Shown: positions 39,336 through 59,439 of the stretch, piece by piece | Layout of the letters: every line of letters starts with the position of its first letter | Position numbering within the stretch: the first letter of the stretch is position 1 | NCBI RefSeq assembly: GCF_014696435.1 | Contig: NZ_JACJQG010000010.1 | Location: 108,576 to 172,575 of the forward strand | DNA from: Calothrix anomala FACHB-343 | GTDB lineage: Bacteria > Cyanobacteriota > Cyanobacteriia > Cyanobacteriales > Nostocaceae | Length of the DNA: 64,000 bases | Direction: 5' to 3' | Position numbers and translations under genes: made by a program | The notes under the pieces: generated by a model | The model's input: the letters and a program-made list of their open reading frames with translations, nothing else | What the model was told of the DNA's origin: nothing | Databases searched by the model: none

Positions 39336-39380
39336 AGGGTAGCCCCGAACCCGGATAACTTTGTCATCAAAATATTTTGG

Positions 39381-39917
39381 CTATGGGAGATATCCCAAAT
39401 CTGCCAGCTTGGCTAAAACCTTATTCGCACTTTCAACGATGCTTTCAGAATCAGTTTTGCATTCGACTTCAGGATTAAGGGGTGGTTCATAGGGATCATC
39501 TATACCTGTGAAGTTCTTGATTTCACCTGCACGTGCCTTTTTATATAAGCCCTTGACATCTCGTTGTTCACAAACGTTAAGCGGTGCATGAACATAAACT
39601 TCAATAAAGTTGCCTATCAGCTGCCGCACCTCTTGGCGAATGGCATAATATGGTGAGATAGCACAAACTATGACAATAACATCATTTTTAGTTAGTAGGT
39701 GAGCGACAAAGCCAATTCGGCGAATATTCTCATCTCTATCTTCTTTACTGAAGCCTAACTCCTTGCACAAGTTTTTACGCACTATATCGCCATCAAGCAC
39801 TTGTACTTTATATCCTGAGCATCGCAATTGTTGTTCTAGAGAACGACTGATAGTGGTTTTACCTGCACCACTTAAACCAGTTAACCATACTGTTACACCG
39901 CGCTGTGGCAACTTCAC
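39381..39917 (-). CDS. cysC: Adenylyl-sulfate (APS) kinase
   Basis: 178 residues (GTG start). It phosphorylates APS to PAPS, the donor for sulfotransferases. All family landmarks are present: P-loop LTGLSGAGKTT near residues 13-23, LDGDIVRKNL near 41-50, FSKEDRDENIRRIGFVA, the catalytic serine in AISPYYAIRQ near 88, and the lid FTGIDDPYEPPLNPEV. The length equals single-domain CysC. It is divergent from the aldolase operon. Because a sulfotransferase is encoded at 50682, it probably supplies PAPS to the cluster product rather than to general assimilation. Confidence 0.93.
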   Translation of the reverse strand: MKLPQRGVTVWLTGLSGAGKTTISRSLEQQLRCSGYKVQVLDGDIVRKNLCKELGFSKEDRDENIRRIGFVAHLLTKNDVIVIVCAISPYYAIRQEVRQLIGNFIEVYVHAPLNVCEQRDVKGLYKKARAGEIKNFTGIDDPYEPPLNPEVECKTDSESIVESANKVLAKLADLGYLP

Positions 39918-40287
39918 TTAACTATCCGCAAATTTTTATAACCATCTATTTTAAGATGCAAGCACATAGAAAATCTACTATGACAAACACCTAATACTGT
40001 TTCACTTTAAGGTTAATACATTTGGGCAACTGGGATTATTACTATACTTGGTAGTTGATCTAGTTATAGTTAAAAAACTTCCTGAAATGCCAACTTCGAG
40101 TCGTGGGCTTCGTTTATAACCATAAACCGAAAGCATAAATGTATGTGATAAAGTATATTACAGTGGATGCTGGAAAAGCTTAATTTTGCGTTGATGTAGC
40201 TTGGTCATTGTAATTGCCCCAATCACCAAAAATGAGACAGTTGCTCTTAGCGACCAAAATTTCCCCACTCCTATACAAAGGCAAACC
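39918..40287. promoter_or_regulatory. Divergent promoter region of the biosynthetic cluster
   Basis: 370 bp between the cysC and aldolase start codons, AT-rich and without a gene. AAAGG at 40277-40281 is the ribosome site of the aldolase ATG at 40288. No strong palindrome was noticed. Confidence 0.4.
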
Positions 40288-41328
40288 ATGACTAAAACCC
40301 ACCAGATTACTATCCATGATTCGACCCTGCGAGATGGACAGCACGCTGTTCACCATCAACTAACCCTAGAGCAGATGCGTCTCTATGCTGAAGCTGCTAA
40401 TGCCGCGGGTGTACCCGTCATAGAGGTTGGGCATGGTAATGGTTTGGGTGCATCATCGCTACAGGTCGGACTAGCGGTTAGCAGCGATCTAGATATGATG
40501 AAAACTGTACGGCAGGCACTTAACCAGAGCCGCATGGCGGTATTTATGTTACCTGGATGGGGGACAACTCGTGACTTGGATCAAGCCATTGCAGAGGGAG
40601 CGGATGTGATCCGAATCGGCGCACATTGCACGGAGTATAGTGTTACTGAGCGATATCTAGAACACGCTCGAAAAGCTGGTGTAGAGGCACAAGGAATCCT
40701 TCTGATGAGCCACATGGCTTCACCTAAACAACTGGCAGATGCCTGTGTAAATATGCAGAATTATGGGGCACAAGCCGTCGGCATTTTTGACTCTTCTGGG
40801 CACTATCTTCCCGATGATGTAACAAAACGCATTGCCGCGATCCGAGAAGCAGTTGACGTTTCTATAATATACCACAGCCACAACAACCTTTGCATGGCTG
40901 TTGCTAATTCTATTGCTGCGTCTAAAGCAGGTGCAAATATTCTTGATGCCTGCGCCCGTGGCTTTGGTGCAGGTGCAGGCAATACTCAAATTGAGGTGTT
41001 AGTTCCTGTACTTCATCGGCTTGGCTTTGAAACAGGAATTGAGCTTTATGGATTGCTTGATGCTGCTGATATTGCAGAGTGCGAGCTAATGCCTACCCCA
41101 TCGACTGTTACTTCGACAAGTATCGTCAGCGGGTTGGCAGGTGTATTCTCCGGATTTAAGTCAAAGGTCACGGCAGTTGCAACTGAGATGGGTATCGACC
41201 CACGTGATATATTTTTTGAGCTAGGGCGACTTCAAGTGATCGCAGGTCAAGAAGATTTGATTATTGATGTAGCACTAGCATTATCTAAACGCCAGAAAAA
41301 TGCAGATGAACAAACTTGCCAAAATTAA
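40288..41328 (+). CDS. DmpG-type 4-hydroxy-2-oxovalerate aldolase
   Basis: HMG-CoA-lyase-like TIM-barrel aldolase. DmpG/BphI cleaves 4-hydroxy-2-oxoacids to pyruvate and an aldehyde that is channelled to DmpF. The N-terminus carries [20 protein letters not shown] and [36 protein letters not shown] holds the metal-binding HxH and is followed by [20 protein letters not shown]. It is 346 residues from the ATG at 40288, which has a good AAAGG site; a further upstream start lacks one. It overlaps the ArgRS gene by 29 bp. The matching dehydrogenase is in the same cluster but on the opposite strand (45680). Confidence 0.9.
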
Positions 41329-43348
41329 TGCAGTTCGTCGTCGGGAGGTTGAAGCTTTCCGGGATGAGCAAATTGCGATCCACAAGAAAAAATCGCTGCC
41401 CAATTTCGGAGATTACCCGTTAGTAAAGCTGAGAAAGCGGATTGCAGATGCTTTGTCAAAAAGGTGGGGACAGGGACACTTGGAACCTCAGTTTGAGCTG
41501 ATTGAGCGAGAAAAGTTTGGTGGCGACGTTGCGCTGAAGCTTGAGCAGCTTCTGAAAAATGGTGGTCCTAAACGCTTCATTAAGGAGTATCAACCCTGGA
41601 TTGTGGAAGTGCTGAAGGGAGAGGAATTCTCCGACTCCATAGCACAAGTTCAAACAAAGGGGATGTACATTAATCTCACGCTTTCGGATCACTGGTTCTT
41701 AAAGTCTGCTCAGACCATTTTTGACATGGGCAGCAGTTTTGGACTGAGCGATATCCAGGCAAACCGCACTATTATCGTCGATTATTCATCGCCGAATGTG
41801 GCAAAAGTTCTGCATGCAGGACATATTCGGTCAACAATTATTGGACATGTGCTGTCCAATTTGCACGAAGCTTGCGGAGCTTTAGTCTATCGGATCAACC
41901 ATATCAATGATTTTGGTGGATTTGGCTTTAACTTAGAAGGTTATCGCAGGTTCAAGGATCAATTTCCATCCACGATGGGAAATAATGATCGCCTCTTGGA
42001 GATCTATCGGATTCGCCGGACAACAGAGCGGATTGTCGCAGAGGATCTATCCCTGAATACTCTCAGCGAGGAAGAGCAAGCTCTTTTAGGTCGCTATTTT
42101 CCGAACATTCAGGACGAACAAGGTTTAAAGACAGCATTTGCGGAATTTGTAGCTGCCTCTGATCGCCGCTTTGCTGCACTAGAAGCAGGAGTCGAAGAGG
42201 AAGTCGATCTCTGGGCAGCAATGGTAAAGTGGAGCCTTGAGGATTTTGATCGTTTTTACAATGCTCTCGGCATCCACATCGACTTCGTTCTTGGTGAAAG
42301 TTTCTATTTCTATGCGGGCGATGCGCTGATCGATGAATGCCTCGCGTCTGGCCAGGCTGTCGTCTACACTCAGACTTTAGCAGCGCAGGACATCCAGGAA
42401 TTAGACTTGCTTCTGGCTCTGGAGAAAATGACTCAGTCTGAGCATGACAGCCGTGTTGAATTAATCCGAAAGGATATTGGCGCGGTCGTTGTGCCTCTGG
42501 AAGATGGCGAACGGTATGTCGTGCGCCGCGCTGATGGTCGGAGCATTTATGCCACCCGCGATATTGGAGCGATCGCTCTGCGCTGTGAGCTATTCTCTCC
42601 AACCAATATCACCTACGTTGTTGGACAGGAACAGAAGGTTCATTTTTCTCGCCTGTTCAAGGCAGCCTACAAAATTGGTATTGCCCCCCCTGACCTGCGG
42701 CTCAAGCACTTGTACTTTGGTTTCTACATTGATGCTCAAACAGGCAAGAAGTTATCAAGTCGTGACACGGTGTCAGGTGTTAATCAATTGCTGACCGAGT
42801 CGTTTAAATATTTCAGATCTCGTCTGAGCGATCGCGCAAATCAAACCGAAGCGGAATTAAATCACGCTGCCCGCCAGCTCGCTGTGGGCTCGCTGGTGTT
42901 CAACGACCTAAAGCAGGACATGAAAGGATCGGTCGATATTGATTCGACCACTCTGGAAAATACGATCACGGGCTTTGAGAAATCTGGCGGCGCATATATG
43001 GTATACTCTGCTTGTCGTGCAAGGAGCATTATGCGAAAATATGGCAAGGAGCCAATTCCTGCAGACCAGATAGAGCAGTTTGAGATTAATGAACAGGAGG
43101 CGATGCTTCTTCTCAAGCTTCAACAGATTCCTGAAAAAATCGCAGCCTCTGCGGATCAAGCCAACCCTTCTCTCTTGATTCGCCATTTGCTTGAGACGGC
43201 AATGCTTTACAATTCCTACTACACTCGTGCGCCCGTAATCACAGATGGGGTTGCTAATCCAGCACGGCTACTTATTACCGTGGCAGTTCAGCAATCGCTG
43301 ATCAATAGTCTCAAGCTTTGCCATGTTGACTGTCCACCAACAATATAG
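41300..43348 (+). CDS. argS: Arginyl-tRNA synthetase paralogue in the biosynthetic cluster
   Basis: Class I synthetase: HIGH motif as HAGH at residues 172-175 within [24 protein letters not shown] counterpart KKLSSR near 483-488, [16 protein letters not shown] in the core, and a DALR anticodon domain at the C-terminus ([20 protein letters not shown]). It is 682 residues against roughly 550-600 for ordinary bacterial enzymes, with a longer N-terminus and insertions. The frame starts inside the aldolase gene, so it is translated from the same message. It may charge tRNA-Arg as a resistant duplicate or feed Arg-tRNA to a biosynthetic step. The housekeeping role is unlikely in this setting. Confidence 0.9.
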
Positions 43349-43357
43349 AATGGGAAA

Positions 43358-44122
43358 ATGGTAGAGAGGCTGAGGGGTAAGAGATCAATCATTACGGGTG
43401 GTGCAAATGGTATTGGGAAGGCGATTGCAGAAGCATTTGCATCTGAAGGATCAGATATTTTCCTGACAGCTCAAACAGACGAAGCAGCAGCTCATAACCT
43501 TTGTGAGCATCTTTCATCATTCGGTGTTAGAACGTCTTATACTCTGCTTGATGCCCAAGAACCCGATGCAGTATCCCACCTTTTTGCTGCAAGCCATAAA
43601 CTTTTTGGCTGTGCAGATATTCTTGTCAACAATGCGGCGACAGCCACTCGAACAGCATTCGTTAATTTCTCACTAGAGGAGTATAATCGTACACTTGAAG
43701 TCAATCTACGCTTTCCCTTCTTCACCACTCAATATTTCGCTCGTGCCTGTATTGCAGACAGCCGCCAAGGTAGCATAATCAACATCTCATCGATCAGTGC
43801 AACGAAAGCTATTAGCAAAATGAGCGCATATCAGTGTAGTAAAGCTGGCTTGCTGATGCTGAGTAAGGGTGCTGCATACGAACTAGCATCTCACGGTATT
43901 CGAGTAAATACTATTTCTCCTGGGCTGACTGCAACGAAGGCAAATTCGGATCAGTGGCTGCACAACCCATCAGTTTGGGATGAACGGGGCAAAGACATCC
44001 CTCTTGGTCGTACCGGGCAACCAGAAGACATTGCCGGAGCAGCCATATTTCTGGCATCTGAAGAGTCCAATTGGATAACTGGTGCCAATATTGTTGTTGA
44101 TGGAGGAGACAGCGTGATTTGA
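43358..44122 (+). CDS. Short-chain dehydrogenase/reductase
   Basis: Classical SDR of 254 residues. NAD(P)-binding GGANGIGKAI near 17-26, NNAAT near 91, catalytic Ser in INISSISAT near 145, YQCSK with Tyr-x-x-x-Lys near 158-162, and a C-terminal GANIVVDGGDS. The substrate cannot be told. In this cluster it would reduce or oxidise a ketone or alcohol intermediate. It starts 9 bp after argS and runs into the next gene, so it is part of the same operon. Confidence 0.92.
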   Translation: MVERLRGKRSIITGGANGIGKAIAEAFASEGSDIFLTAQTDEAAAHNLCEHLSSFGVRTSYTLLDAQEPDAVSHLFAASHKLFGCADILVNNAATATRTAFVNFSLEEYNRTLEVNLRFPFFTTQYFARACIADSRQGSIINISSISATKAISKMSAYQCSKAGLLMLSKGAAYELASHGIRVNTISPGLTATKANSDQWLHNPSVWDERGKDIPLGRTGQPEDIAGAAIFLASEESNWITGANIVVDGGDSVI

Positions 44123-44127
44123 CTACA

Positions 44128-45099
44128 ATGCAAACTCCCTTTTTATCTGCTTCAGATCTTAATGATCCTGCTCTGGTTCCTTATGCGATTGATGCTTTAC
44201 GGGAAATATTTCCTGCTTTATTAAATTCTAAATTAGAAATGCCGGAGCGAACGTTGTTGACCACAGCGGATGGTCTTCAGCAGCGGCAAATGCTAGTAAG
44301 CCCTATTGCTTGGCCCGACGCAAATATCGCGTCTGTAAAGATCACGACTTTGACACCAACGAATCGAGATCGTGGGCTGCAGTTGATTCAAGGATTAGTA
44401 ATTTTGATGGATTTGGTAAATGGTCGTCCACAGATCATTATTGATGGTGGAGCATTAACAGCACTGAGAACTGGTGCAGTAGTAGGGCTAGCAGCGGATT
44501 TACTCTCCCCACCTTTTGCTCATCGTCTTTCGGTAATAGGAACGGGCATTCAGGCTCGATCTGTCATCGATGCGATTCTGACAGTTCGTCCAATTGAGCA
44601 GATCAATCTTGCATCTAGGACTAGAACGGGAGCTGAAGTCTTGGCGGCATGGATATATGAGCGATGGGGAAAGAATATTACTGTGCATGTGCAAGATTCT
44701 GTGGAATTAGCTGTCACAAACACAGATATTATCTGCACGGCTACATCAACTGATTCTACCATCCCGATAGTAAAGGCGGATTGGGGGGGCAATGCAGCTT
44801 TTTATGCCGTTATTGGTGGTATAAACGAGGATGCTTGTGAGGTTGAGCCAGTGTTATTTGAATCAGCCATAGCAGTTGTTGAGACACGCGAAGGGGCATT
44901 AGCTGAAGCAGGTGAAATTCGTGCTGCTATAAAAGCAAATCATTTGAATCCGGATGATCTTATTGAACTCGGTACTGTAGTTGATAACCCATCAGCATTC
45001 AATAAGGCACATCAAAAGGTTATCTTTCGGTCAGTTGGTAATGCTGCAGAGGATCTTGCTGTAGCATATTCTCTCCTTCATAAGATTGAAATTACTTAG
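44128..45099 (+). CDS. Ornithine cyclodeaminase/mu-crystallin family protein
   Basis: 323 residues from the ATG at 44128, a better start than the TTG at 44119 that overlaps the SDR stop. GGALTALRTGAVVGLAADLL near 110-130 is the family signature, LSVIGTGIQARSVIDAI near 138 the NAD(P) loop, and NTDIICTATSTDSTIP near 200. Members cyclise ornithine to proline or arginine to citrulline-like products, or make or reduce imines (as in SbnB). Fits an arginine- or ornithine-derived pathway. Last plus-strand gene before IS debris. Confidence 0.88.
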   Translation: MQTPFLSASDLNDPALVPYAIDALREIFPALLNSKLEMPERTLLTTADGLQQRQMLVSPIAWPDANIASVKITTLTPTNRDRGLQLIQGLVILMDLVNGRPQIIIDGGALTALRTGAVVGLAADLLSPPFAHRLSVIGTGIQARSVIDAILTVRPIEQINLASRTRTGAEVLAAWIYERWGKNITVHVQDSVELAVTNTDIICTATSTDSTIPIVKADWGGNAAFYAVIGGINEDACEVEPVLFESAIAVVETREGALAEAGEIRAAIKANHLNPDDLIELGTVVDNPSAFNKAHQKVIFRSVGNAAEDLAVAYSLLHKIEIT

Positions 45100-45680
45100 G
45101 CGTTGCATAAATGCGAGAGCGAAAAATTTTAAGGGAGATGGGCATTAATCATCCCAAAGCCCTTTAAATCTGACAGATGCAAGTTGGGGGAGATATAGCA
45201 GTGCGATGTAGAAGTTGAGTGTTAAAGGATTAAACTGAACTTCCCTGTTTGACAAAATTAGTATGCGATGCATAGCAAGGGTTTTAAGGATTTTGAGTTG
45301 GACGACAAAAGTGCATTGGTCTTTTTGCTCCACAGGACGAGCCAAACCCACTCTCACTTCACGCCACTCCGTTGGTCGCTGACATCTTTTAATTCGGCGA
45401 ATGGGAGTTAATTCTTCTTTTTCGCTTGGGACACAGATGCCAGTACGAATCTGACAACTATCTAGTTCTACTAAAATGCGGTTCCAACCATCTCTTTTAG
45501 ACGCTGGAAACAAAAACCTATCCTACTAATAATATTTGCGCTATGAAGCTTAAGCTGATTGAGAATTAAAAACCAAAAATCAAGGTTCTCAGACACATTT
45601 TACGACAAGAATTAGGGATTTTTAGAATAGTGGGATAGGTTAATTTTTCAAAAATTGGGATGCTCCCTTCGAAATAGTGT
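45099..45680. mobile_element. IS debris inside the biosynthetic cluster
   Basis: GGCGTTGCATAAATG at 45099 matches the end of the element at 48749, and CAAAAATTGGGATGCTCCC at about 45653 looks like another IS terminus. Between them lies a degraded transposase (45145-45513). It separates the plus-strand aldolase/ArgRS operon from the minus-strand DmpF/carbamoyltransferase operon. Confidence 0.5.
45145..45513 (-). pseudogene. Fragment of an ISKra4-type transposase
   Basis: The frame contains VELDSCQIRTGICVPSEKEE and TEWREVRVGLARPVEQKD, which match an internal segment of ISKra4-family transposases common in cyanobacteria. Both ends are missing and the sequence after FVVQL diverges, implying a frameshift. 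No intact transposase or terminal repeats are present. Confidence 0.65.
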
Positions 45681-46564
45681 TATTGACATGATGCAGCCGC
45701 CCTGGTCGCGTAACGTTCAGCAACCATGATGGCAGCAGCATTGATAATGTCCAAATTGCCTGCATAAGATGGCAGATAGTCACCTCGTCCCTGAACCTCG
45801 ACTGCAACAAAAACCTGTCCGCTTTTAAACACCTCACAAGCGGTTATATGGTAGCCCGGAACAAAGGTAACAACTTGTGCTGCGGCTTTTCTAACGGCTG
45901 CCTTCACAGTAGTTGGGTCGGCTTCGTCTGTCATCATAGAAATAGCAACTCGAAATATCGGTGGCGGCTTTGCTGGACTAAGATTAACAATTGCCTTAAC
46001 CTGCGATGCTTTTGAAAAAGTAGAGATCGCTATCTCTGTGATCTCAATATACTCATCTAAGTTGAGTCGGGTGCCACGACCAACACTTGGACTCGCTGCG
46101 GTGGTTACTACCTCAATATAAGGAATGGATGGAAATAAACCCGAAAGTGCGTTAACTATAGGTACACTAGCCTGACCTCCACAGCTGATTAGACTGATGT
46201 TAGCATGATTCAATATTTCATCGCCATTTATGCTTGGCGCAATCATGTGGCCGCTCCGACTAGGAGTCAGATTAATCATCACCTTACCCAATGGCTTAAG
46301 CTGGTTCCAGTGTTCCTGGTGGGAATGGGCATCTGTAGCATCAAAAACCAGGTCAAAGGTATGAGACTGATCAACCAGTGCAGCAATACCACCATCGGTA
46401 ATTGAATATCCCATTTTAAGGGCTCGTCTAAGTCCAGCTGAGACTTGATTGCGACCCACAACCAGAACGCATTGGAGATGGAGCGATCGCTGGATTTTTA
46501 TCAGAAGGTCAGTACCAATATAACCAGCGCCAAGAATCGCTACCCTGAGAGGCTGAGATTTCAT
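45680..46564 (-). CDS. DmpF-type acylating acetaldehyde dehydrogenase
   Basis: It oxidises an aldehyde to an acyl-CoA, taking the product of the DmpG aldolase. VAILGAGYIGTDLLIKI near residues 8-24 is the NAD site, SLISCGGQASVPIVNAL near 125-140 holds the nucleophile Cys, GRGTRLNLDEYIEIT near 167 and VNLSPAKPPPIFRVA near 200 match the DmpF/MhpF family. 294 residues is a normal length. It is 12 bp after the carbamoyltransferase with an AGAGGA site, so they form an operon. That it is on the other strand from its usual partner aldolase shows reassembly of the pair. Confidence 0.9.
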   Translation of the reverse strand: MKSQPLRVAILGAGYIGTDLLIKIQRSLHLQCVLVVGRNQVSAGLRRALKMGYSITDGGIAALVDQSHTFDLVFDATDAHSHQEHWNQLKPLGKVMINLTPSRSGHMIAPSINGDEILNHANISLISCGGQASVPIVNALSGLFPSIPYIEVVTTAASPSVGRGTRLNLDEYIEITEIAISTFSKASQVKAIVNLSPAKPPPIFRVAISMMTDEADPTTVKAAVRKAAAQVVTFVPGYHITACEVFKSGQVFVAVEVQGRGDYLPSYAGNLDIINAAAIMVAERYATRAAASCQ

Positions 46565-46576
46565 AATTGTTCCTCT

Positions 46577-48586
46577 TTAGGATTTTGCTGCATCAGAAAC
46601 AATCAGTACTAGCCGCTGCTGCACGAGCTCCTGAAAGCGCGAGATTGCATCCATTCGTGCTTGCCCAACGAGTCCATGCTGATTCAGTAAAAGGTGAAGG
46701 GGTTGGTGTCCGTCTGCATCAGCAAGCAACTTGAAGAGAGATTGTGAAATTTCTACTGCTTGACTACCCTGAGCTTGGCAAATTAAGAAGAAGCTTAATT
46801 TAGAACTGTTACCGCTTGCCTGTAGGTGTACCTGCGGACCCAGAGTAAAATGCATTGTTTCAAAACGTTGTTTAGTAATTGAAAGGGGACAGAGCAATTG
46901 ATCGCCCAGAACCAAAGCATCCATTTTGGTTGAGAGGAGCATGATAATGGCTTGTTCTGGTGTTTCAACAATTGGTTCACCACGTACATTCATACTGGTA
47001 TTAACTAGAACAGGAACTCCAGTTATCTGAGCAAAGACTGTCAGAAGAGTATGCAGGTCTGGGGTCCGTTTGCGATCCACAGTTTGTACCCGCGCTGTTC
47101 CATCTTCATGAGTCACCGCCTGCAACCGATTTCTCCATTCATCTCGTACCTTGACGACGCGCAGCATATAGGGGCTTTCAGGATCGGAACCCATCTGAAA
47201 ATAAGTTTCAGCTGCTTCAGCAAGCACAAGAGGAGCGTAGGGTCGAAACTCTTCCCTGTACTTAATTGCATGATTTAGGTGACGCCAAGTCTCCCGTTCA
47301 AAGGGCGAAGCAAGAATCGAGCGATGCCCTAGAGCACGAGGTCCAAATTCAGATCCGCCATAGAACCAACCCACAACCTGACCAGCAACAAGACGTTTAG
47401 CAACCTCCACGAAGTCTGCTGATGCAACATCTAGACGAGTGCAATAAGCATTAATAGCGACTGAAATTTCTGCTGGGCTATACGAACGACCAAGAAAGTC
47501 GTGTTCCAGTAAGGCACCTTTTGTACACCCGGATGAGAAGTAGTGAGCTGCTGCTGCTGCTCCAATACAAATACCAGCATCATTACTGGCAGGCATAATG
47601 TAAAAAGCTTCTACTCCAGACTGCTCAAGAATCTTTTGATTAGCAACGCTATTTAGAGCGACCCCACCTGAGTAAGCAAGCTGCCGATTACCAGTCGAAT
47701 TAATTGCTTGGCGGGCACGCTCTACAAGAGCGATTTCTAAATCACGCTGAATCCGGGCAGCAAGATTACTATAAACTATCGGTGTCTGACGGGAGTTTGC
47801 CTTGCATAAGCCAACCTTCCAAGATACTCCAAATTGGAGTCGTCCTGTGTCATCACGTGTTAAGAGAGAAGGACTAAACAGAGCGGCTTTACCATAAGGC
47901 GCAAGACCCATGAGTTTCCCACCTTCCTGCCAATCTCCAAAGATATATTGGGAAACAGCGGCATAGGTCTCGCCTAATGAAGAACTGCCGCACATGGGAT
48001 GAAAAGAACGTGCAACATTCCGTGACACGAGCCGATAGCTATGTTTGTTGAACTCATAGACTGACTCAGCGTGATAAGGAGGACGTGGAACCGGAACTGG
48101 TCGTTCAATGTAATAGGCTAGCTCCATCCCATCCAAAATCAGGTCGTCTGCACCAATCACAGTGCCACCAGAGCCGTCAATCACCATCACCGTAGCACTA
48201 TCAAACGGTGAGCAGTAAAATGCTGCAAATGCATGGGCGAGATGATGTGATACGTAGACTGACTTAGGTCCTAGCGGATCGAACAAATCAAACTCTTCGT
48301 CGGCAAGAGGAAATCCAAGACCAACCTGACCAGGTAGCAAATTCTGAATGTTGAATGCAAACAGGTTAACGTCATCGGCTGAAATACCTACTGCGTCGAG
48401 ACAGTAGTCTACTGCCTGCCGTGTACTGAGATAGGGACGTCCATCGTGCTTAATCCGTGTTAATCTTTCGAGTTGCACCGCGACTTCGATACGCCCGTTT
48501 ATAAATACACAAGCTGATGCATCGTGACTGCAAGAGATGCCAACAATGATCTGGGAATCTTCTTTCGTAGACTGAGTGAGCGACAT
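46577..48586 (-). CDS. NodU/CmcH-type O-carbamoyltransferase with a C-terminal extension
   Basis: It transfers a carbamoyl group from carbamoyl phosphate to a hydroxyl via a carbamoyl-adenylate. The Kae1-like N-domain shows IIVGISCSHDASACVF near residue 12, VSHHLAHAFAAFYCSPFDSA near 110-130, TVMVIDGSGGTVI and the LAYSGGVALNSVANQKI block near 305. The C-domain contains WFYGGSEFGPRALGHRSIL and VLVNTSMNVRGEPIV. At 669 residues it exceeds the usual 550-600 by a C-terminal region of about 95 that I do not recognise. Family members include SxtI, TobZ and NodU. It heads the minus-strand operon with dmpF. Confidence 0.92.
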   Translation of the reverse strand: MSLTQSTKEDSQIIVGISCSHDASACVFINGRIEVAVQLERLTRIKHDGRPYLSTRQAVDYCLDAVGISADDVNLFAFNIQNLLPGQVGLGFPLADEEFDLFDPLGPKSVYVSHHLAHAFAAFYCSPFDSATVMVIDGSGGTVIGADDLILDGMELAYYIERPVPVPRPPYHAESVYEFNKHSYRLVSRNVARSFHPMCGSSSLGETYAAVSQYIFGDWQEGGKLMGLAPYGKAALFSPSLLTRDDTGRLQFGVSWKVGLCKANSRQTPIVYSNLAARIQRDLEIALVERARQAINSTGNRQLAYSGGVALNSVANQKILEQSGVEAFYIMPASNDAGICIGAAAAAHYFSSGCTKGALLEHDFLGRSYSPAEISVAINAYCTRLDVASADFVEVAKRLVAGQVVGWFYGGSEFGPRALGHRSILASPFERETWRHLNHAIKYREEFRPYAPLVLAEAAETYFQMGSDPESPYMLRVVKVRDEWRNRLQAVTHEDGTARVQTVDRKRTPDLHTLLTVFAQITGVPVLVNTSMNVRGEPIVETPEQAIIMLLSTKMDALVLGDQLLCPLSITKQRFETMHFTLGPQVHLQASGNSSKLSFFLICQAQGSQAVEISQSLFKLLADADGHQPLHLLLNQHGLVGQARMDAISRFQELVQQRLVLIVSDAAKS

Positions 48587-48748
48587 AAGAAGAATTAAAG
48601 GGCGATTGAAGAACTTAAACAGGCAAGTTATTGAAGAATCGATAACATTTAGTCTTTAGAAACTAACTGTAAACGTTATTCAATCAAAAGTTGCACATCG
48701 CATGATCGTTGTAAAAAGTTGGCATTGCACATTAGCGGGATTACTTCA

Positions 48749-48902: not shown

Positions 48903-48908
48903 AAAAAT

Positions 48909-49310: not shown

Positions 49311-49868
49311 AGGACAACTCCATTTATATTATTGATGAAAATTTTTTCAGAGGTCATTTATAAAGTAAAAATAAAATTCTTGTAGGGTGTGTTATGGCTA
49401 AAATAGTGCAGAAATATAACTCTTGTGGGACGGGCATCTTGCCCATCCCACAAGAAAGTGATAATGCAACATTTTAGCCTTGCCACGCCACTACTTAAGA
49501 TTTACTTTATAAATAGTCTCTCAAAGACTATATCAAAACTATGCTTCTATGCTTTTAGTTTAAATTATTTTTTAGGTTTTATGTTAAAAAACTAATATAA
49601 ATTTTAAGATATTGTAAATAATGAAAATTTTGTTTGTCATAGTATCACAAACTCCGATTGATTACCTATATTTTATAGGGTAATAAAATATGTATTTAAT
49701 GGAAGTTTTGCATATTGCGTGATAGAGAAGAAATTGCCCTGAAACCTACTATCCTATATACCACAACATATATACTGCCGCACTTATAGCCAATTTCTCA
49801 CTCTGTATTTCTAAAATATTCCTACAGAATCAATGTTCTTGTTCCACTAATTAATTAAGTAGATTGCC
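49311..49868. other. Gap with a dispersed hairpin and the promoter of the second operon
   Basis: TCTTGTGGGA (49421-49430) and TCCCACAAGA (49446-49455) bracket an inner GGGCA/TGCCC stem, a strong hairpin of the dispersed-repeat type. The rest, especially 49540-49700, is very AT-rich and presumably holds the promoter for the plus-strand operon starting at 49869. No gene seen. Confidence 0.55.
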
Positions 49869-50639
49869 ATGTCCTTGTATTCACTTACATCAAGTGAGTT
49901 AGAAGCTTACGAAAAAGATGGCTTTTGCGTAGTTGCTGGTCTTTTGTCAGTAGATGAGCTTGAAGTAGTCTACTCTCTACTTGATGAAGCCAAATCTTTA
50001 GTTGCCAGAGGTGAGGTTTCTAAAAGTTGGCAAACAGACATAACAGCTTGGGAGCGAGACTCGACTTCTGATTCCTTAATTGTAAGAAAAGTTCCAGCGC
50101 CCTTTGATCACTCGGAACGGTTTCGCAGTATTTTCAGTAGTCCAGTATTACTGGACCGGGTTGAGCAACTGATTGGTTCAGAAATTTTTCTACACTCATC
50201 GAAACTTATCTTTAAGCCACCTCAGATAGGACGACGTAAGCCTCTACACCAAGACCTAGCTTATTGGGAGGACATGCCAGCTCGGCAAGTCACTGTTTGG
50301 TGTGCAATTGATCCTGCAACACCAGAGAATGGTTGCTTGGAAGTGATACCTGGATCTCATAAGCAAGGTTTAATTCCACACGCTGAGTTAGAGGACTGGC
50401 AGATCGATGAGCATACTTTAGAGAACCGACCAGTTTGTATACCAATGAATGCAGGCGATGTCATGTTTTTAGATGTTCTAACAATTCACGCCAGTCTCGC
50501 GAATCGATCAAATTGTGGGCGCTTAGCAGCAATTGTAAATTACTACTCTGAACCGCGTCGTCCTGATCAGCGCTCTAAATATGGCTCAGAAATTCCTCTC
50601 AGGACATGTAGTTTATTGTCTGCAACTACTTCAAATTAA
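49869..50639 (+). CDS. PhyH-type Fe(II)/2-oxoglutarate dioxygenase
   Basis: 256 residues. Metal triad: HQD at 127-129 (KPLHQDLAYW) and His207 (IHASLANRS), with Arg213 for 2-oxoglutarate. WCAIDPATPENGCLEVIPGS precedes the C-terminal strand, as in phytanoyl-CoA dioxygenase relatives. It hydroxylates or desaturates an unknown small molecule. SxtS in the saxitoxin pathway belongs to the same broad family. First gene of the second plus-strand operon. Confidence 0.88.
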   Translation: MSLYSLTSSELEAYEKDGFCVVAGLLSVDELEVVYSLLDEAKSLVARGEVSKSWQTDITAWERDSTSDSLIVRKVPAPFDHSERFRSIFSSPVLLDRVEQLIGSEIFLHSSKLIFKPPQIGRRKPLHQDLAYWEDMPARQVTVWCAIDPATPENGCLEVIPGSHKQGLIPHAELEDWQIDEHTLENRPVCIPMNAGDVMFLDVLTIHASLANRSNCGRLAAIVNYYSEPRRPDQRSKYGSEIPLRTCSLLSATTSN

Positions 50640-50681
50640 CGATCAACAAGAAATCAAAGCTCAACGATTTGAAAAAAGGCT

Positions 50682-51725
50682 ATGCGGTACAATATGCACT
50701 TCATATCTCAGCATCTCGATGACGACCTTGAACGTCTAATTCATACGGTTGCGATGACACAGCCAGCCCAAGTGCTTGACTCTCTTCTTACAGCCATTGA
50801 AGGATGTGATCCTGGGCTACGGTACAAGGGTGTTCTTACAGCAGCTCTCTCCTTTCAGACATGCGTCTTAGATACAATGCGTCGTGGTCAGCTAACCCGC
50901 GAGGCTCTGAATCAAATTCTACAGGAAGGGATAGGTACTAATACAGACTCCAGTACAAATTTAAACTGCATTTTTGATCGTGCAATCCTTCTTTTTGGAA
51001 TCCGTAGGTCAGGAAACCATGCGCTCATTGAGTGGTTGAAAGGACATTTTGATCCAAATGCAGTTCTTTTTCTAAATAGTGCTGAACCATCACTCTTTCG
51101 CACAACAGCAAGCGAACTGAGTGTTGATGCTTGTACCTATGGAGCAGTTCCAATCCGAGAACACCAAACTTGCCTCATTGTGTCCTATGAGAACTGTGAC
51201 CCACGCCTTTATCCGCTGGTATATAATTCCGGTATTGCAAGTAGAACTGACGCACTGCTTCTGCTGAGGGACTTTCCAAACACTGCGGCTTCGATTGCGC
51301 GAGCAGCACATGACCAACCTGCATTTGGCTATCGCTATCGCATCCGCGACTTTCCCGCTCTATGGTGTATCTATGCCAAATTTATTTTGGATGGGGCACC
51401 GAATTTTCATCCAGTTCTCTATAACGATTGGTTTAAGAGCATCGACAAACGATTTCAGTTAGAAACCACCTTGAAACTTCGGCGATCAGATGCAGGACTT
51501 AACCGAGTTAGTCATTTTGGGCAAGGCAGCTCTTTTGATGCAGTTACTTACGACGGAAACGCCCAAGATATGGACGTCTTGAATCGGTGGGCAACAATGC
51601 TTGAAGACCCGCTGTTTCAATTTCTACTACTAGCAGAAGAGGAAGCTTTACCCTTGAACGATATATTGTTTGGCGGTTTTGACCGAAGTTATTCAGATAT
51701 CTTGGCTATTTGGCAAAAGCGTTAA
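50682..51725 (+). CDS. Sulfotransferase-like protein (PAPS-dependent)
   Basis: 347 residues. FGIRRSGNHALIEWL at 105-119 fits the 5'-phosphosulfate-binding loop, and LLLRDFPNTAASIARA at 192-207 the 3'-phosphate-binding RDxxNxxxS motif. GQGSSF near 280-285 matches a GxGSSF loop seen in bacterial sulfotransferases. The N-terminal 95 residues are an added domain of unknown role. With cysC in the same cluster it implies a sulfated product. The start (50682 or the ATG at 50694) is uncertain. Confidence 0.7.
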   Translation: MRYNMHFISQHLDDDLERLIHTVAMTQPAQVLDSLLTAIEGCDPGLRYKGVLTAALSFQTCVLDTMRRGQLTREALNQILQEGIGTNTDSSTNLNCIFDRAILLFGIRRSGNHALIEWLKGHFDPNAVLFLNSAEPSLFRTTASELSVDACTYGAVPIREHQTCLIVSYENCDPRLYPLVYNSGIASRTDALLLLRDFPNTAASIARAAHDQPAFGYRYRIRDFPALWCIYAKFILDGAPNFHPVLYNDWFKSIDKRFQLETTLKLRRSDAGLNRVSHFGQGSSFDAVTYDGNAQDMDVLNRWATMLEDPLFQFLLLAEEEALPLNDILFGGFDRSYSDILAIWQKR

Positions 51726-52945
51726 CAACTATGAATGTTCTTCATGTTATTCGCCGAGTTACGAATGGTGGAGCTAGTCTTGGTATGCTTCGCCAATGTA
51801 TTGATGGTCCTGAAGGGGTTTGCCAGAAAGTTGTTTCGCTTTGCGAACCAGATTTAAAAGCACTGTCTCGATTTGTTTCAGCAAACGTAGAGGTGATTTG
51901 GAAACGGGAAGACATTCCATCAGCCGTGCTTGCATCCGATATCGTACAGGTTGAATGGTGGAACAATCCAGAAGTTAACGCATTCCTGGTGCAAACTGAT
52001 CTTCCTCCCTGCCGCATTCAAATGCACGCACGCGGACATTTTAGTGCTCCTTGGATGTGCCCAACTGTGTCCCTGCTATCGCGAGTAGATCTTTGCAGTG
52101 TCACAACTCCAAGTGCAGCAAAAAACCCCACTTTTGCAAGAGCGTGCAAGCAGGCTGCTTTGCCTTATCCTCCCTGTATTTTCTCAGCAGCTCCGTTGTT
52201 ATCACTACCACTTGAAACAAGTCAATCCAAAATGAAATTTGGTATTACGTTCGGGTATCTTGGTACAGTTGAGCCAATCAAAATGCATAGTGCTGCTATG
52301 AAAATGGCAGCCGAGATTCTAAAAGCAATTCCAACTGCACGCTTTCGTTTTGCTGGGGAAGGTTCTTTGGATTATTATCGTGAAGAGTGCCAAGCACTAG
52401 GCATAGCGAACCAAGTAGAATTCGATGGCTTCGTTGATAGTCCAGCTAGCTTTCTTTCTGAATTAGATATATTTTTTTACCCGCTCAATCCTTTTACTTA
52501 TGCAACGAGCGAGAAAGCCTTACAAGAGGCAATGGGCATGGGCTTACCGTGCGTCGTGTTTCCGTATGGAGGTATCCAAGATCTTGTAACTCCGCACTGC
52601 GCTGCCATTGCCTCAATCGAGTCTGACTTTGTAGCTGCCTGCATAGCGTTAGGGTTAGATGCAGATCGACGTGCCAAAATTGCTGCGGCTGCAGTACAGC
52701 GCATTCACACTTTCGCTTATATCAGTGATTGGCGAACGCACCTGTACAACACCTGGACTGACCTTATGGGGCATAAAAAGTCTACACGGAATGCGTTGTC
52801 TGTTGCGGATTCCGATCTCTTTACCCATTGTACTAATACATCAGCTATCAATCGTGATGCACTTGAACCTGCACTGCAAGCTGACTTTGATAGAGTTGCT
52901 GCTTTTGTTGAGGAAGGCTATGCGGAATGGATTGAGACAAAGTAG
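51710..52945 (+). CDS. GT4-type glycosyltransferase
   Basis: GT-B fold. A Gly-rich N-terminus (VLHVIRRVTNGGASLGMLRQ), acceptor domain, then the C-terminal donor half with YLGTVEPIKMHSAAMKMAAE and FRFAGEGSLDYYREECQALG, and the EX7E region SEKALQEAMGMGLPCVVFP near 265-283. The frame opens at 51710 inside the sulfotransferase gene; the ATG at 51731 (MNVLHVIRR) is the likelier start. A C-terminal 60-residue tail is extra. It suggests a glycosylated intermediate or product, or a sugar unit carrying the carbamoyl. Confidence 0.85.
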   Translation: MAKALTTMNVLHVIRRVTNGGASLGMLRQCIDGPEGVCQKVVSLCEPDLKALSRFVSANVEVIWKREDIPSAVLASDIVQVEWWNNPEVNAFLVQTDLPPCRIQMHARGHFSAPWMCPTVSLLSRVDLCSVTTPSAAKNPTFARACKQAALPYPPCIFSAAPLLSLPLETSQSKMKFGITFGYLGTVEPIKMHSAAMKMAAEILKAIPTARFRFAGEGSLDYYREECQALGIANQVEFDGFVDSPASFLSELDIFFYPLNPFTYATSEKALQEAMGMGLPCVVFPYGGIQDLVTPHCAAIASIESDFVAACIALGLDADRRAKIAAAAVQRIHTFAYISDWRTHLYNTWTDLMGHKKSTRNALSVADSDLFTHCTNTSAINRDALEPALQADFDRVAAFVEEGYAEWIETK

Positions 52946-53011
52946 GTGTCACTGACTATGACGAAGAAATAACAGAATTAATGATTATCAAGGAACAATA
53001 GGAATCAAGAG

Positions 53012-53929
53012 GTGGAATCGTTAGAAGTGCTTAATCTTGAAACTAAAGAGGTGCCACGAATATCTCGTACGGCTTTTCTTGAACTAACACCAGCTACGAT
53101 AATGAAGTTTGATCGGCCCATCGTTGTGGACTTTCTTGAACCTCCTGAACCAGGTACTATTACTAATCTAATTCGTTCAGAGATTGGTGATCTTCCAGCA
53201 GCTCTGTTTAAGAAATCGCGTGATCCAGAGGCACCTGGGCGATCACAGGTTACAAAAATTCCACTTAACAGCTTCTTCAAAACACCTCTTTATAGTTCAT
53301 CTTCTCACAAAACTATCTACCGGATTGTTACTAATATAAAGTACCAAACTGAATTGATTGATCGAATTATTGGTATGAAAGCAAATCAGTTATTTCCATA
53401 TCAGCAAAGGGGTAACTCTGCTAATCTTTGGATCAATTACGAGGGGCAATTTGGTCGTGCACATTTTGATGAACTCGAGAATTTTAATTTGCAACTGGAA
53501 GGTACAAAGCGTTTTGTCTGCTTACCACCTGGGCGAAGCAACTTTTATATTCGTTCTTTCTGGCGTGGTTTTGGTCATCATTCCCAAGCGGTTAATTTCG
53601 ATGCAGTTGATGAAGCTCGCTTTCCAAAACTTATGAAAGAACTAAGTGCCCGTCGAGAGATTATTCTTCGACCCGGACAGTTACTTTATATCCCTTTAGG
53701 CTGGTGGCATCAGGTTGAGCCTTTGGGAGAAATTAACATCAATTTAAATTTTTGGCTTCATAGTTGGAAAGCCCTGCGTCGTCCCTATGTTTTTATTGAT
53801 GGAGTTTATAAGGTGGTGCTCCGGCAATTACTTGGTCTTTACGATTATCAGCCGGAGCAGAGGCATCAAGTTCCAACCTTCAAGACAACTTTAGAGGGCA
53901 ATACTAATGATAGAGAAGCTCAAAGTTAA
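53012..53929 (+). CDS. JmjC/cupin-8-type Fe(II)/2-oxoglutarate oxygenase
   Basis: 305 residues, GTG start. NLWINYEGQFGRAHFDEL with the HxD at 151 and 153, NFNLQLEGTKRFVCLPP with the substrate Lys/Arg region, and IPLGWWHQVEPL with His233 form the FIH-like metal site. Such proteins hydroxylate small molecules or protein side chains. Second dioxygenase of the cluster. The 3' end overlaps the AONS gene by 23 bp. Confidence 0.85.
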   Translation: MESLEVLNLETKEVPRISRTAFLELTPATIMKFDRPIVVDFLEPPEPGTITNLIRSEIGDLPAALFKKSRDPEAPGRSQVTKIPLNSFFKTPLYSSSSHKTIYRIVTNIKYQTELIDRIIGMKANQLFPYQQRGNSANLWINYEGQFGRAHFDELENFNLQLEGTKRFVCLPPGRSNFYIRSFWRGFGHHSQAVNFDAVDEARFPKLMKELSARREIILRPGQLLYIPLGWWHQVEPLGEININLNFWLHSWKALRRPYVFIDGVYKVVLRQLLGLYDYQPEQRHQVPTFKTTLEGNTNDREAQS

Positions 53930-55142
53930 GCCCACCAATCGCTACCGCAATAACGCAAAAGCGATCGGTATCGGCAATACCTTTTGGGACAATTCTGAGC
54001 ATCATGGACTTGCTGGTATTGTTGCGGATCTTCAGCGGGGTCGCCTGTATACTCAGGAAGGACACAGCTTTGTTAATTTCAGCTGCTGTTCCTATCTTGA
54101 TCTCGACTCACATATTCAAGTTATTGAAGGCGCAATTACAGCATTACGTAAGTTTGGAGTGCTCGATCATTGTATTCCAAGAACTCGAGTTCAAATTCCG
54201 GCTCTCCTTGAATTAGAAGCATCTTTGAGTGAACTGTTCGAGGCACAAGTAGTCAGTGCAATCTCAGCTAGCGTTGCGACCAGTGGCATCCTTCCGTTAA
54301 TTGCATCTGGGCATTTGACGGATGATGAGCGACCATTAATGATTTTTGACAAGAACTGCCATGTTTCAATGCAGCAGGTAAAACCAATTTGTGCCGATGA
54401 GACAGAGATTGTGACCTGTTCTCACCATGATCTGGATTTCATAGAAGATCAGTGCAAGCTTTATGAACGTGTTTGCTATATCTGTGATGGTAGCGACAGT
54501 TTAGGGGGGTATGCGCCAGTTAAGGAGTTAACGCAGCTTCAAGAGTGTTATGGTCTTTATATTTACTACGATGATTCTCATTCAATTTCAGCCTATGGTA
54601 AAAGAGGCGTTGGCTATGTCCGATCGCATATTGATTGCCTCAATGACCATACAATTATTACCGCCACCCTAAATAAGGCGTTTGGAGCCAGTGGCGCAGC
54701 CATTCTGCTTGGTGATCGTTCCCGCGAAACCTTGCGCATTATCGAGCGATTTGCTGGTGCAATCAGCTATTCACAGCCGATGAATATAGCTGCGATCGGT
54801 GCTTGCCTTGCTTCAGCCGACATTCACCGTACCAAAGAACTGCATACTTTGCAGTACAAGCTTCAGAGTAAGATCGCCTTGTTTGACAGTTTGGTGCCTA
54901 CTGCACAGGCAGGGTCTACCTTTCCCATTCGGTTAGTTCCAGCTGCAGACAGCGAAGTGATTACGCTAGGGAAACTTCTCTTTGAAGCGGGCTATTATGT
55001 TTCCCCAGTATTCTTTCCGATTGTTGCTCGCGGTACTGCAGGTTTAAGGGTGATGATGCGAACCGGGCAAACAGATGACGATATTCGAGGTCTCGCGCAA
55101 GTCATCATTAACAATCGCCTCTTATCGGAGGTTGCAAAATGA
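53907..55142 (+). CDS. Alpha-oxoamine synthase (AONS/KBL-type PLP enzyme)
   Basis: Condenses an amino acid with an acyl-CoA (or acyl-ACP) with loss of CO2. 411 residues. FSCCSYLDLDSHIQVIEGA at the N-terminus, FDKNCHVSMQQVKPIC, ICDGSDSLGGYAPVKEL with the cofactor Asp, YYDDSHSISAYGKRGVGYV, and the Schiff-base Lys257 in ATLNKAFGASGAA. The closest functional analogues by context are the AONS domain of SxtA, CqsA and biotin BioF; sequence alone does not choose. GAGGG lies 8-10 bp before the ATG. Its stop overlaps the next start as ATGA. Confidence 0.9.
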   Translation: MIEKLKVKPTNRYRNNAKAIGIGNTFWDNSEHHGLAGIVADLQRGRLYTQEGHSFVNFSCCSYLDLDSHIQVIEGAITALRKFGVLDHCIPRTRVQIPALLELEASLSELFEAQVVSAISASVATSGILPLIASGHLTDDERPLMIFDKNCHVSMQQVKPICADETEIVTCSHHDLDFIEDQCKLYERVCYICDGSDSLGGYAPVKELTQLQECYGLYIYYDDSHSISAYGKRGVGYVRSHIDCLNDHTIITATLNKAFGASGAAILLGDRSRETLRIIERFAGAISYSQPMNIAAIGACLASADIHRTKELHTLQYKLQSKIALFDSLVPTAQAGSTFPIRLVPAADSEVITLGKLLFEAGYYVSPVFFPIVARGTAGLRVMMRTGQTDDDIRGLAQVIINNRLLSEVAK

Positions 55143-56023
55143 TGGCATTATCTGTGACTGGTCGCGCCATTCCCCGCAGCGTACTCTACACGCCTGCTCT
55201 CGATCCTCAGCGTCTAGCCAAGGCACTCCAATACGACAGCGATCTTCACCTGATCGATCTAGAAGACTCAGTGCCTCGAATGAAAAAAGAATACGCACGT
55301 AGTTTGTGTAGGAATGCGTTGATGGCTGCTCCTGTTCCACAACTGATGGCGGTGCGTATCAACCCCATACATAGTGCAGAGGTCTATCGGGATTTAGTCA
55401 TGCTGCTGGATGCGCCAATACGTCCGGGCTTTCTCTTCATGACAATGGTTGAAACTGAGTCTGAGGTTGATTGTCTGCGGCGATCACTTGCAGAGGTCAA
55501 TTGGCAACCGCAGATTTATGCTACTATTGAGACCGTAGCTGCGATTCAGAATATCGCTACGCTAGTCACAAAACTGGATGGTATAATTCTTGGCTCAGCT
55601 GATTTAGCAGCTACACTGGGTGTACCAATCTCTCAAAGTGCTCTAAGGTCAGCACGCCAAGCAATGGCTCTAGCAGCTGCTGGTGCTGGGATCGGCTGTT
55701 TAGACACAGGCAACTTTCACCTCGACAAGCCTGAGCTTCTCGAAGCTGAGATTACTGAGGCAAAAGCAATGGGTTTTCATGGAAAGGGTACTGTTCATCC
55801 AAAAGAGTTGCCAGCAATTAATGCAGCCTTTCGCCCAGATCAGGAAGAACTTTTTCAAGCAAGACGTATTATCGAAGCCTCTGAAGCCTCAGCAGAAGGT
55901 GTTTGTATACTCGATGGCTCCATGATTGGACCTCCTTTCATCCGCAAAGCAAAACAACTACTTGCTGATAACTTAGCTTGGCAGAGCTTCTTTAGAAGAA
56001 CTACAACGGAGACGAGGAGATGA
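55139..56023 (+). CDS. CitE/HpcH-type CoA-ester lyase
   Basis: 294 residues. RSVLYTPALDPQRLAKALQY, LHLIDLEDSVP with the acidic metal-binding region, MAVRINPIHSAEVYRDL, TMVETESEVDCLRRSL and a C-terminal GFHGKGTVHPKELPAINAAF match malyl-/citramalyl-/methylmalyl-CoA lyases. It cleaves or forms a 3-hydroxyacyl-CoA by an aldol-type reaction. Behind a GGAGG site and coupled by ATGA to AONS and, on the other side, to the MaoC gene. Likely makes or trims the acyl-CoA used by AONS. Confidence 0.88.
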   Translation: MMALSVTGRAIPRSVLYTPALDPQRLAKALQYDSDLHLIDLEDSVPRMKKEYARSLCRNALMAAPVPQLMAVRINPIHSAEVYRDLVMLLDAPIRPGFLFMTMVETESEVDCLRRSLAEVNWQPQIYATIETVAAIQNIATLVTKLDGIILGSADLAATLGVPISQSALRSARQAMALAAAGAGIGCLDTGNFHLDKPELLEAEITEAKAMGFHGKGTVHPKELPAINAAFRPDQEELFQARRIIEASEASAEGVCILDGSMIGPPFIRKAKQLLADNLAWQSFFRRTTTETRR

Positions 56024-56532
56024 CTCTGATTCGTACTGGCGAGAATGAATATACTGAACGTCACGGCGGAGACTACGAAGATTTTGAGCCGGGAATGGTA
56101 ATTAACCATTGGCCGGGTCGAACATTAACAGAAAGTGATAATACTTGGTTAACTTTGCTGTTGATGAATCAACATCCACTGCACTTTGACCAGACATATG
56201 CGGCTCAAACTACTTATGGTCGAGTGTTGGTTAACAGTTCCATTACCTTAGCCTTAGTTGGCGGCATGACTGTACAGGCGCTATCTGCTCGCGCAATTGC
56301 TAATCTAGGTTGGGACAAAGTGCGACTTTCAGCACCAGTATTTGTTGGTGATACACTATATGCCCGCAGTCGTATCTTGTCGAAGCGCTTATCTCGGTCT
56401 CGTCCTGGTCAGGGAATTATCACTGTCGAGACAACTGGATTAAAAGCAGATGGGGATGTTGTTATAGTTTTTGAGAGAGCTTTTCTAGTACATTGTCGCG
56501 ATAAATCTGTATCAGAGTGTAATAAAGAGTAA
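56020..56532 (+). CDS. MaoC-like enoyl-CoA hydratase/dehydratase
   Basis: 170-residue hot-dog fold. YEDFEPGMVINHWPGRTLTE, then MNQHPLHFDQTYAAQTTYG with the D-x4-H active-site region and RVLVNSSITLALVGGMTVQ. Mesaconyl-CoA hydratase-type enzymes share it, and CoA lyase plus MaoC pairs occur in methylmalyl-CoA and similar routes. Preceded by GAGGAG, ATGA-coupled to the lyase. Last gene of the cluster. Confidence 0.88.
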   Translation: MTLIRTGENEYTERHGGDYEDFEPGMVINHWPGRTLTESDNTWLTLLLMNQHPLHFDQTYAAQTTYGRVLVNSSITLALVGGMTVQALSARAIANLGWDKVRLSAPVFVGDTLYARSRILSKRLSRSRPGQGIITVETTGLKADGDVVIVFERAFLVHCRDKSVSECNKE

Positions 56533-59425: not shown

Positions 59426-59439
59426 TATAGTGAGGTTTT

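Follow-up and report, generated by a model that had tools for sequence, protein, structure and literature searches.

Which product is made by the gene set carried at positions 39,381–56,532 of a DNA stretch from Calothrix anomala FACHB-343, and do these genes belong together at all? The stretch (the window) comprises 64,000 nt at the end of a contig of 172,575 bases in a 9.2-Mb genome, and all coordinates given here are positions in this stretch. The original prediction had named 14 genes within about 17 kb and read them as a saxitoxin-like toolkit. Our results show that the gene set is a genuine conserved biosynthetic unit rather than a group of chance neighbours, and that it is cargo in a variable site of a Nostocales conjugative plasmid. 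For the product, ketomethylene pseudopeptides appear to be a better model than saxitoxin. We consider the chances about even that this is a mobile, self-contained cluster whose product, a pseudopeptide of the ketomethylene type, undergoes oxidation, carbamoylation and glycosylation after its assembly.

A conserved gene set in a plasmid cargo site

All 14 genes are intact open reading frames (ORFs) at the places where they had been predicted. Hidden Markov model searches with Pfam and NCBIfam profiles support the identity of 13 of them. The exception is the sulfotransferase assignment at 50682-51725, for which we found neither a profile, a solved relative nor a usable structural model. The features are as follows.

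39133..56631, no strand: cargo block that contains the whole cluster; the four related plasmids compared (blastn) do not share it
39381..39917, minus: CysC, adenylylsulfate (APS) kinase, for supply of 3'-phosphoadenylylsulfate (PAPS); PF01583 225.8 bits, NF002059 298.6
40201..41328, plus: DmpG-type 4-hydroxy-2-oxo acid aldolase; TIGR03217 366.3, above the cutoff of 286; relatives PDB 8ih7 and 1nvm
41300..43348, plus: second, divergent arginyl-tRNA synthetase (ArgRS); PF00750 and PF05746; TIGR00456 253.2, slightly below the cutoff of 261.65
43358..44122, plus: SDR oxidoreductase; PF13561 207.4 bits
44119..45099, plus: OCD/mu-crystallin-family reductase; PF02423 144.7; nearest solved relative 6t3e, a delta1-pyrroline-2-carboxylate reductase
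45145-45513: small ORF inside the cargo, no family found
45680..46564, minus: DmpF-type acylating aldehyde dehydrogenase; TIGR03215 316.2, above the cutoff of 282.25; PDB 7z3s among relatives
46577..48586, minus: NodU/TobZ-type O-carbamoyltransferase; PF16861 and PF02543; solved relatives include TobZ, GdmN and novobiocin carbamoyltransferase
48909..49310, minus: 133-aa ORF without family; no Pfam match at E<=10
49869..50639, plus: PhyH-type Fe(II)/2-oxoglutarate oxygenase; PF05721 128.7
50682..51725, plus: putative sulfotransferase, unconfirmed; two motifs by eye; 44% homologue in Streptomyces chumphonensis
51710..52945, plus: GT4 glycosyltransferase; PF13692 60.5
53012..53929, plus: Cupin_8/JmjC oxygenase; PF13621 95.6; adjoins AONS in 12/12 Streptomyces core loci
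53907..55142, plus: AONS-type alpha-oxoamine synthase, 411 aa; PF00155 43.2; unnamed subfamily NF005697 532.8; BioF 114.3, below cutoff
55139..56023, plus: HpcH/HpaI (CitE/RipC-like) aldolase or lyase; PF03328 85.5; RipC 176.6, below the cutoff of 375
56020..56532, plus: MaoC/RipB-like dehydratase or hydratase; PF19315 71.2, PF01575 62.1; 84% identity to S. chumphonensis
56590..56631, no strand: perfect 19-bp inverted repeat with a 4-nt loop, abutting the right cargo edge

The genes form the tight units DmpG-ArgRS-SDR-OCD, NodU-DmpF and PhyH-sulfotransferase-GT4-JmjC-AONS-CitE-MaoC, and in the last of these the AONS, CitE and MaoC genes are consecutive and overlapping.

Genomes bearing the same genes bear out the predicted cluster of an alpha-oxoamine synthase with a carbamoyltransferase. 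A genome-contig scan with AONS found four loci, in Nostoc mirabile, S. chumphonensis, Psychrobium and Algicola. S. chumphonensis (AONS 72% identical) has 13 of the 14 genes, all except CysC, within about 16.2 kb, and keeps the orders NodU-DmpF, DmpG-ArgRS-SDR-OCD and sulfotransferase-GT4-AONS-CitE-MaoC. A plasmid of Rhizobium lusitanum carries eight of the 14 (DmpG, DmpF, NodU, AONS, CitE, MaoC, OCD and SDR) within 8.6 kb, all on the same strand; identities range from 34% to 61%. The Psychrobium and Algicola loci combine AONS with MaoC plus CitE or OCD; DmpF and DmpG were not found in the DNA examined there.

In N. mirabile CHAB5784 the AONS is 96% identical. One contig holds PhyH, sulfotransferase, GT4, JmjC, AONS, CitE, MaoC, NodU, DmpF, a DmpG fragment and OCD, and another holds SDR, ArgRS, full-length DmpG and a CysC of 67% identity. 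The ratio of nonsynonymous to synonymous divergence (dN/dS) between the two Nostocaceae was 0.08-0.28 for 13 genes, CysC being saturated. Because dS was 0.69-0.76 for NodU, DmpF and OCD and 0.12-0.42 for the other ten, the cluster looks mosaic in origin. The DmpG fragment of N. mirabile adjoins DmpF, and its second contig also bears an ABC transporter. The S. chumphonensis cluster has a KAS III (ACP_syn_III) gene between PhyH and JmjC (L035 18536-19570), with no counterpart named in the window cargo.

A smaller set recurs widely in Streptomyces. At E<=1e-90, AONS was found in 21 of 392 Streptomyces genomes, 13 of them, including S. chumphonensis, at 63-72% identity. The other 12 of these 13 were selected by their AONS similarity as further loci, of 20 kb each. 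All 12 contain JmjC, AONS, CitE, DmpF, DmpG, OCD and MaoC together (the seven-gene core), and ArgRS, NodU, SDR, sulfotransferase and GT4 were found in none of them at E<=1e-10. The R. lusitanum locus, with no JmjC match, has six of the seven. ORFs in the Streptomyces loci were picked crudely and served for recurring neighbours alone. One such neighbour is a 452-aa protein (c1) in all 12 loci (L037-L048), which has no Pfam or NCBIfam match and is ATP-grasp-like by eye only. Another, found by ORF picking with Pfam run on one member, is an M24 Xaa-Pro-aminopeptidase-type gene in seven of the 12 (L038, L040-L043, L045, L046). MFS transporter genes adjoin the S. chumphonensis, Rhizobium and core Streptomyces loci. 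The c1, M24 and MFS proteins gave no tblastn match in the window at E<=1e-3. M24 genes also lie beside AONS-OCD clusters in L056 and L065; in all these Actinomycetota loci, their role might be in maturation or as a resistant version of a target.

The AONS is uncommon outside these loci. At E<=1e-60 it was found in one of 59 relatives and at E<=1e-80 in one of 386 genomes of cyanobacteria, each time the window's own genome, in two of 218 genomes of the family (its own and N. mirabile), and in three of 396 Actinomycetota genomes, one being S. chumphonensis. On plasmids, 164 records matched at E<=1e-30, all below 60% identity. Two of these were examined: the R. lusitanum plasmid with the cluster described above, and a Rhizobium leguminosarum plasmid whose AONS stands without cluster genes as annotated. 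The carbamoyltransferase has a best match of 48% among plasmids, in a neighbourhood without other cluster genes as annotated. In an AONS tree of 28 rows (L064 omitted), the window, N. mirabile, S. chumphonensis, the 12 Streptomyces loci and R. lusitanum form a clade of 16 rows with support 100/98. DmpF and DmpG lie nearby in these 16 rows and in no others; in the remaining 12, neither gene was found in the DNA examined, part of which is short or lies at contig ends. At nine weaker Streptomyces AONS places (40-47% identity, two of them short contigs), CitE and MaoC occur in four and DmpF/DmpG in none.

The window flanks are plasmid, with a TraG/TrwB-type coupling protein, a TrbI-like protein and a tyrosine recombinase. 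Megablast of 36,400-57,400 matched 30 plasmid records, none above 80% query cover and, among the matches listed, all in the first 2.7 kb; 56,400-64,000 matched 13 plasmid records. The genera named in both searches are all filamentous cyanobacteria. Plasmids of Aulosira laxa NIES-50, Tolypothrix sp. PCC 7712, Nostoc linckia NIES-25 and Trichormus variabilis ATCC 29413, all typed conjugative (rep_cluster_1671, MOBP), were compared by blastn. In this order, their shared backbone ends on the left at 39,006, 39,013, 39,092 and 39,132, and restarts on the right at 56,633, 56,633, 56,632 and 56,760. At the same site these relatives carry helicases, caspase-family proteins, a DNA methyltransferase and many hypotheticals. 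Since the backbone stops and resumes around the cluster, and the relatives have other genes there, the cluster is cargo of a variable site, and its borders are thus set independently of gene function. The GC content of the cargo is 0.444, compared with 0.392 and 0.361 in the flanks.

That unrelated neighbours were merely joined by plasmid rearrangement would fit the different cargo in these relatives and the differing gene order in the two Nostocaceae. Yet the close linkage of 13 genes in S. chumphonensis, with sub-orders kept, together with the core in Streptomyces and the eight genes in Rhizobium, argues against chance neighbours. This explanation is refuted for the 13 shared genes, and we give it next to no credence overall; CysC and the 133-aa ORF may have arrived independently.

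Elsewhere on these plasmids, that of T. variabilis has a DISARM-type system farther along, and a 1637-aa TPR-CHAT protein (31479-36392) adjoining the tyrosine recombinase is plasmid backbone common to Aulosira laxa. The available part of PMC8600333 describes 18 biosynthetic gene clusters (BGCs) on 15 possibly conjugative cyanobacterial plasmids and does not name the present type. Here, the BGC fills a site that is occupied by different cargo in the four relatives compared.

Ketomethylene chemistry as a model for the product

In a ketomethylene pseudopeptide, an amino acid is linked via C-C(=O)-CH2 in place of an amide. The CitE-MaoC-AONS trio points to this chemistry. According to PMC11943689, the ketomemicin (ktm) cluster encodes an aldolase (ktmA), a pyridoxal phosphate (PLP)-dependent C-acyltransferase (ktmB) and a dehydratase (ktmC). 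CitE, AONS and MaoC match these three by class and gene order. For the ktmF dehydrogenase, the OCD and SDR reductases of the cargo are candidate counterparts. The same source states that ketomemicins and arphamenines are the sole natural ketomethylene pseudopeptides known, and that known members have a C-terminal Phe- or Tyr-derived residue. AONS-type enzymes catalyse the decarboxylative condensation of an amino acid with an acyl-CoA (PMC11906848), and stand-alone PLP acyltransferases have been linked to arginine-containing pseudopeptides (PMC9239090). Compared with ketomemicin, the cargo additionally holds DmpF, DmpG, OCD, SDR, two oxygenases, the carbamoyltransferase, GT4 and ArgRS.

A Pfam scan of the cargo proteins found no nonribosomal peptide synthetase (NRPS) or polyketide synthase (PKS), and no ATP-grasp, amidinotransferase, Rieske, FemAB-like or GNAT family. 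The predicted absence of amidinotransferase and Rieske enzymes thus stands for the cargo. So does that of NRPS and PKS, but in N. mirabile an NRPS adjoins the cluster: a 2229-aa ORF with NRPS domains, beside an Asp/Arg-type hydroxylase (OlsC-like, below cutoff). In the window's own genome, the only NRPS sequences found as counterparts were at most 61% identical.

An authentic ktm cluster was sought through the AONS matches at 39-47% identity. L049, L055 and L061 are ktm-like, and none is proven to be ktm. In L049 and L061, two Streptomyces loci, CitE-AONS-MaoC is followed by a PGM1-like ATP-grasp gene. No amidinotransferase was found among the scanned proteins neighbouring AONS in the ktm-like loci, and neither the PGM1 of L049 nor two ATP-grasp-like Streptomyces proteins had a tblastn match in the window at E<=1e-3.

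A saxitoxin-like pathway would instead give an arginine-based amino ketone, carbamoylated and sulfated. At the level of enzyme class, the cargo shares AONS, a NodU-type carbamoyltransferase, PhyH, SDR and APS kinase with saxitoxin biosynthesis. SxtA, however, is a multidomain protein with an AONS domain, whereas the AONS here is stand-alone and matches one Pfam family, and the cargo shows no SxtA-type fusion, amidinotransferase or Rieske enzyme. It also has ArgRS and GT4, as well as CitE, MaoC, DmpF and DmpG, four enzymes for which we know of no place in the saxitoxin pathway. The AONS has Alb29 structures as its best solved relatives (316 bits; 8XHA), and its clade is the one with DmpF and DmpG nearby throughout. 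The saxitoxin comparison was therefore not upheld, and we regard such a pathway as very unlikely.

Alb29 itself (albogrisin, Streptomyces albogriseolus) is nearer to L062 (442 bits). The clade of L051, L060, L062 and L063 is separate from the window clade, and no CitE, MaoC, DmpF or DmpG was found nearby.

DmpF and DmpG are classically catabolic, and among NCBIfam names RipB fits MaoC best and RipC fits CitE best. Together they might suggest a catabolic island of RipB/RipC-like itaconate degradation with a DmpFG meta-cleavage tail. Both names fall short of their cutoffs, though (RipB 207.5 against 340, RipC 176.6 against 375). Such a pathway has no place for the carbamoyltransferase, GT4 and ArgRS, and related loci are adjoined by MFS transporter genes. 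Catabolism is thus a highly improbable function.

The alternative use of DmpF and DmpG in biosynthesis has a precedent in SanN/SanM, a pair of this type in the biosynthesis of nikkomycin, a peptidyl nucleoside. Because AONS, DmpF and DmpG travel together in the 16-row clade, we infer that DmpF and DmpG feed a 2-oxo acid into the pathway. The Tyr of the GVYSSF motif (8ih7) is Phe in the window DmpG, and in 7/7 cluster DmpGs aligned; the residue at this position tunes aldehyde handling in BphI.

The same genes might serve a cyclic hydroxylated amino acid. DmpF would reduce an aminoacyl thioester to an amino aldehyde, DmpG would add pyruvate, the adduct would close to a pyrroline-2-carboxylate, and OCD would reduce it to a substituted 4-hydroxyproline, with CitE, MaoC and AONS making a separate part. 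The best solved relative of OCD is indeed the pyrroline reductase 6t3e, and pyrroline/piperideine-2-carboxylate reductases rank second and third in NCBIfam, below cutoff. The M24 genes of seven core Streptomyces loci and L056 also look as if proline-like residues were involved. Yet the OCD matches include alanine dehydrogenases and an iminosuccinate reductase as well, the window lacks an M24 homologue in the search above, no aminoacyl-CoA source was seen, and the usual substrate of DmpF is a short acyl-CoA. On balance we think such an amino acid unlikely, albeit worth keeping in view. Bulgecinine was tried as the DmpF/DmpG/OCD product and set aside; the route to its core is described as not known in PMC5472815 (2017), and it is kept as an analogy for this cyclic alternative.

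The second arginyl-tRNA synthetase

The cluster ArgRS aligns in two pieces, at 29-32% identity, with the genome's other ArgRS, and is 93% identical to the N. mirabile copy and 55% to that of S. chumphonensis. At E<=1e-60 it was found in one of 392 Streptomyces genomes, S. chumphonensis, the bearer of the extended cluster. On plasmids 16 records matched, at 26-28% identity among the matches listed. Such a cluster-specific copy is probably a resistance enzyme that protects the producer, to judge from sequence and distribution. Protection of this kind would imply arginine mimicry on the part of the product or one of its breakdown products.

Both the catalytic (PF00750) and the DALR anticodon (PF05746) domains are present. 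HAGH, SSPN, Y-x-x-x-D and Q-x-x-H, which in yeast ArgRS have roles in catalysis and arginine contact, are kept in alignment with the yeast enzyme and the genome's own. Their retention would also suit a biosynthetic role, in which Arg-tRNA is supplied to a tRNA-dependent transferase that adds arginine to the product. The FemAB class can use aminoacyl-tRNA, and the Rhizobium cluster has a FemAB-like protein. That locus, however, has no ArgRS match, and the scanned cargo proteins include neither a FemAB-like nor a GNAT family. A biosynthetic ArgRS is accordingly rather improbable, and resistance remains the reading that we prefer.

Proposed pathway and implications

In the pseudopeptide pathway that we propose, DmpF would convert an acyl-CoA to an aldehyde, and addition of pyruvate by DmpG would turn this into a 4-hydroxy-2-oxo acid. 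Condensation of that acid with acetyl- or malonyl-CoA may then fall to the CitE-like enzyme. The adduct would be dehydrated by MaoC and reduced by the OCD or SDR enzyme, after which AONS would link the acyl-CoA with an amino acid in a decarboxylative step. Hydroxylation by JmjC and PhyH, carbamoylation by NodU and glycosylation by GT4 would follow, while the extra ArgRS would protect the producer. The putative sulfotransferase may add sulfate using PAPS from CysC. Gene families, linkage, conservation and cargo borders are observed here; substrates, order of steps and product are proposed from them.

Several points weigh against this scheme. Its match to ktm is one of class and gene order, and the ATP-grasp ligase (ktmD) and amidinotransferase (ktmE) of ketomemicin were not seen in the cargo. 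DmpG and CitE could make separate parts, and the nearest solved relative of OCD reduces a cyclic imine, which fits the cyclic amino acid. No ArgRS was found in the 12 core Streptomyces loci, despite their close AONS genes, which makes it improbable that the core product mimics arginine. In N. mirabile, ArgRS lies on a different contig from AONS. In the comparison with N. mirabile that gave dN/dS, CysC reached only 64% identity and its dS was saturated. The predicted sulfation is no more than a possibility: CysC was not found in the S. chumphonensis locus, and the sulfotransferase label is unconfirmed.

For this last protein, we noted by eye a P-loop-like RRSGNHA and an R...S motif, RDFPNTAAS, which we take to resemble PAPS-binding motifs. 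It has no Pfam family at E<=10 and no solved relative among PDB sequences. Its AlphaFold model is poor (pLDDT 52.8; three sequences were modelled, none usable), and hhalign against a single Paracoccus sulfotransferase gave 0.5%. In plasmids, tblastn found five weak matches (25-31%), two to a 'hypothetical protein' and three in unannotated records.

No described product for this gene set was found in searches of the open-access PMC literature, in agreement with the prediction of a new metabolite. A broader proposal, to which we give a rather low probability, is a family of ketomethylene pseudopeptides with a hydroxylated aliphatic residue, made with repurposed DmpF/DmpG, across Cyanobacteriota, Actinomycetota and Pseudomonadota. 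Its extended, carbamoylated and glycosylated form would be an arginine-mimicking ArgRS inhibitor, with a resistant ArgRS in the producer, moved among Nostocales by a conjugative plasmid.

Two Nostocaceae, S. chumphonensis and 12 further Streptomyces loci share the seven-gene core, and a Rhizobium plasmid has all of its genes but one. This distribution would point to a larger, unrecognised branch of ketomethylene biosynthesis with a different supply of building blocks. According to PMC9239090, standard BGC finders failed to pick up a cluster centred on a PLP acyltransferase of the stand-alone kind, and the present branch may therefore be overlooked elsewhere as well. For the extended cluster, its own ArgRS offers a testable lead to the mode of action ahead of knowing the molecule.

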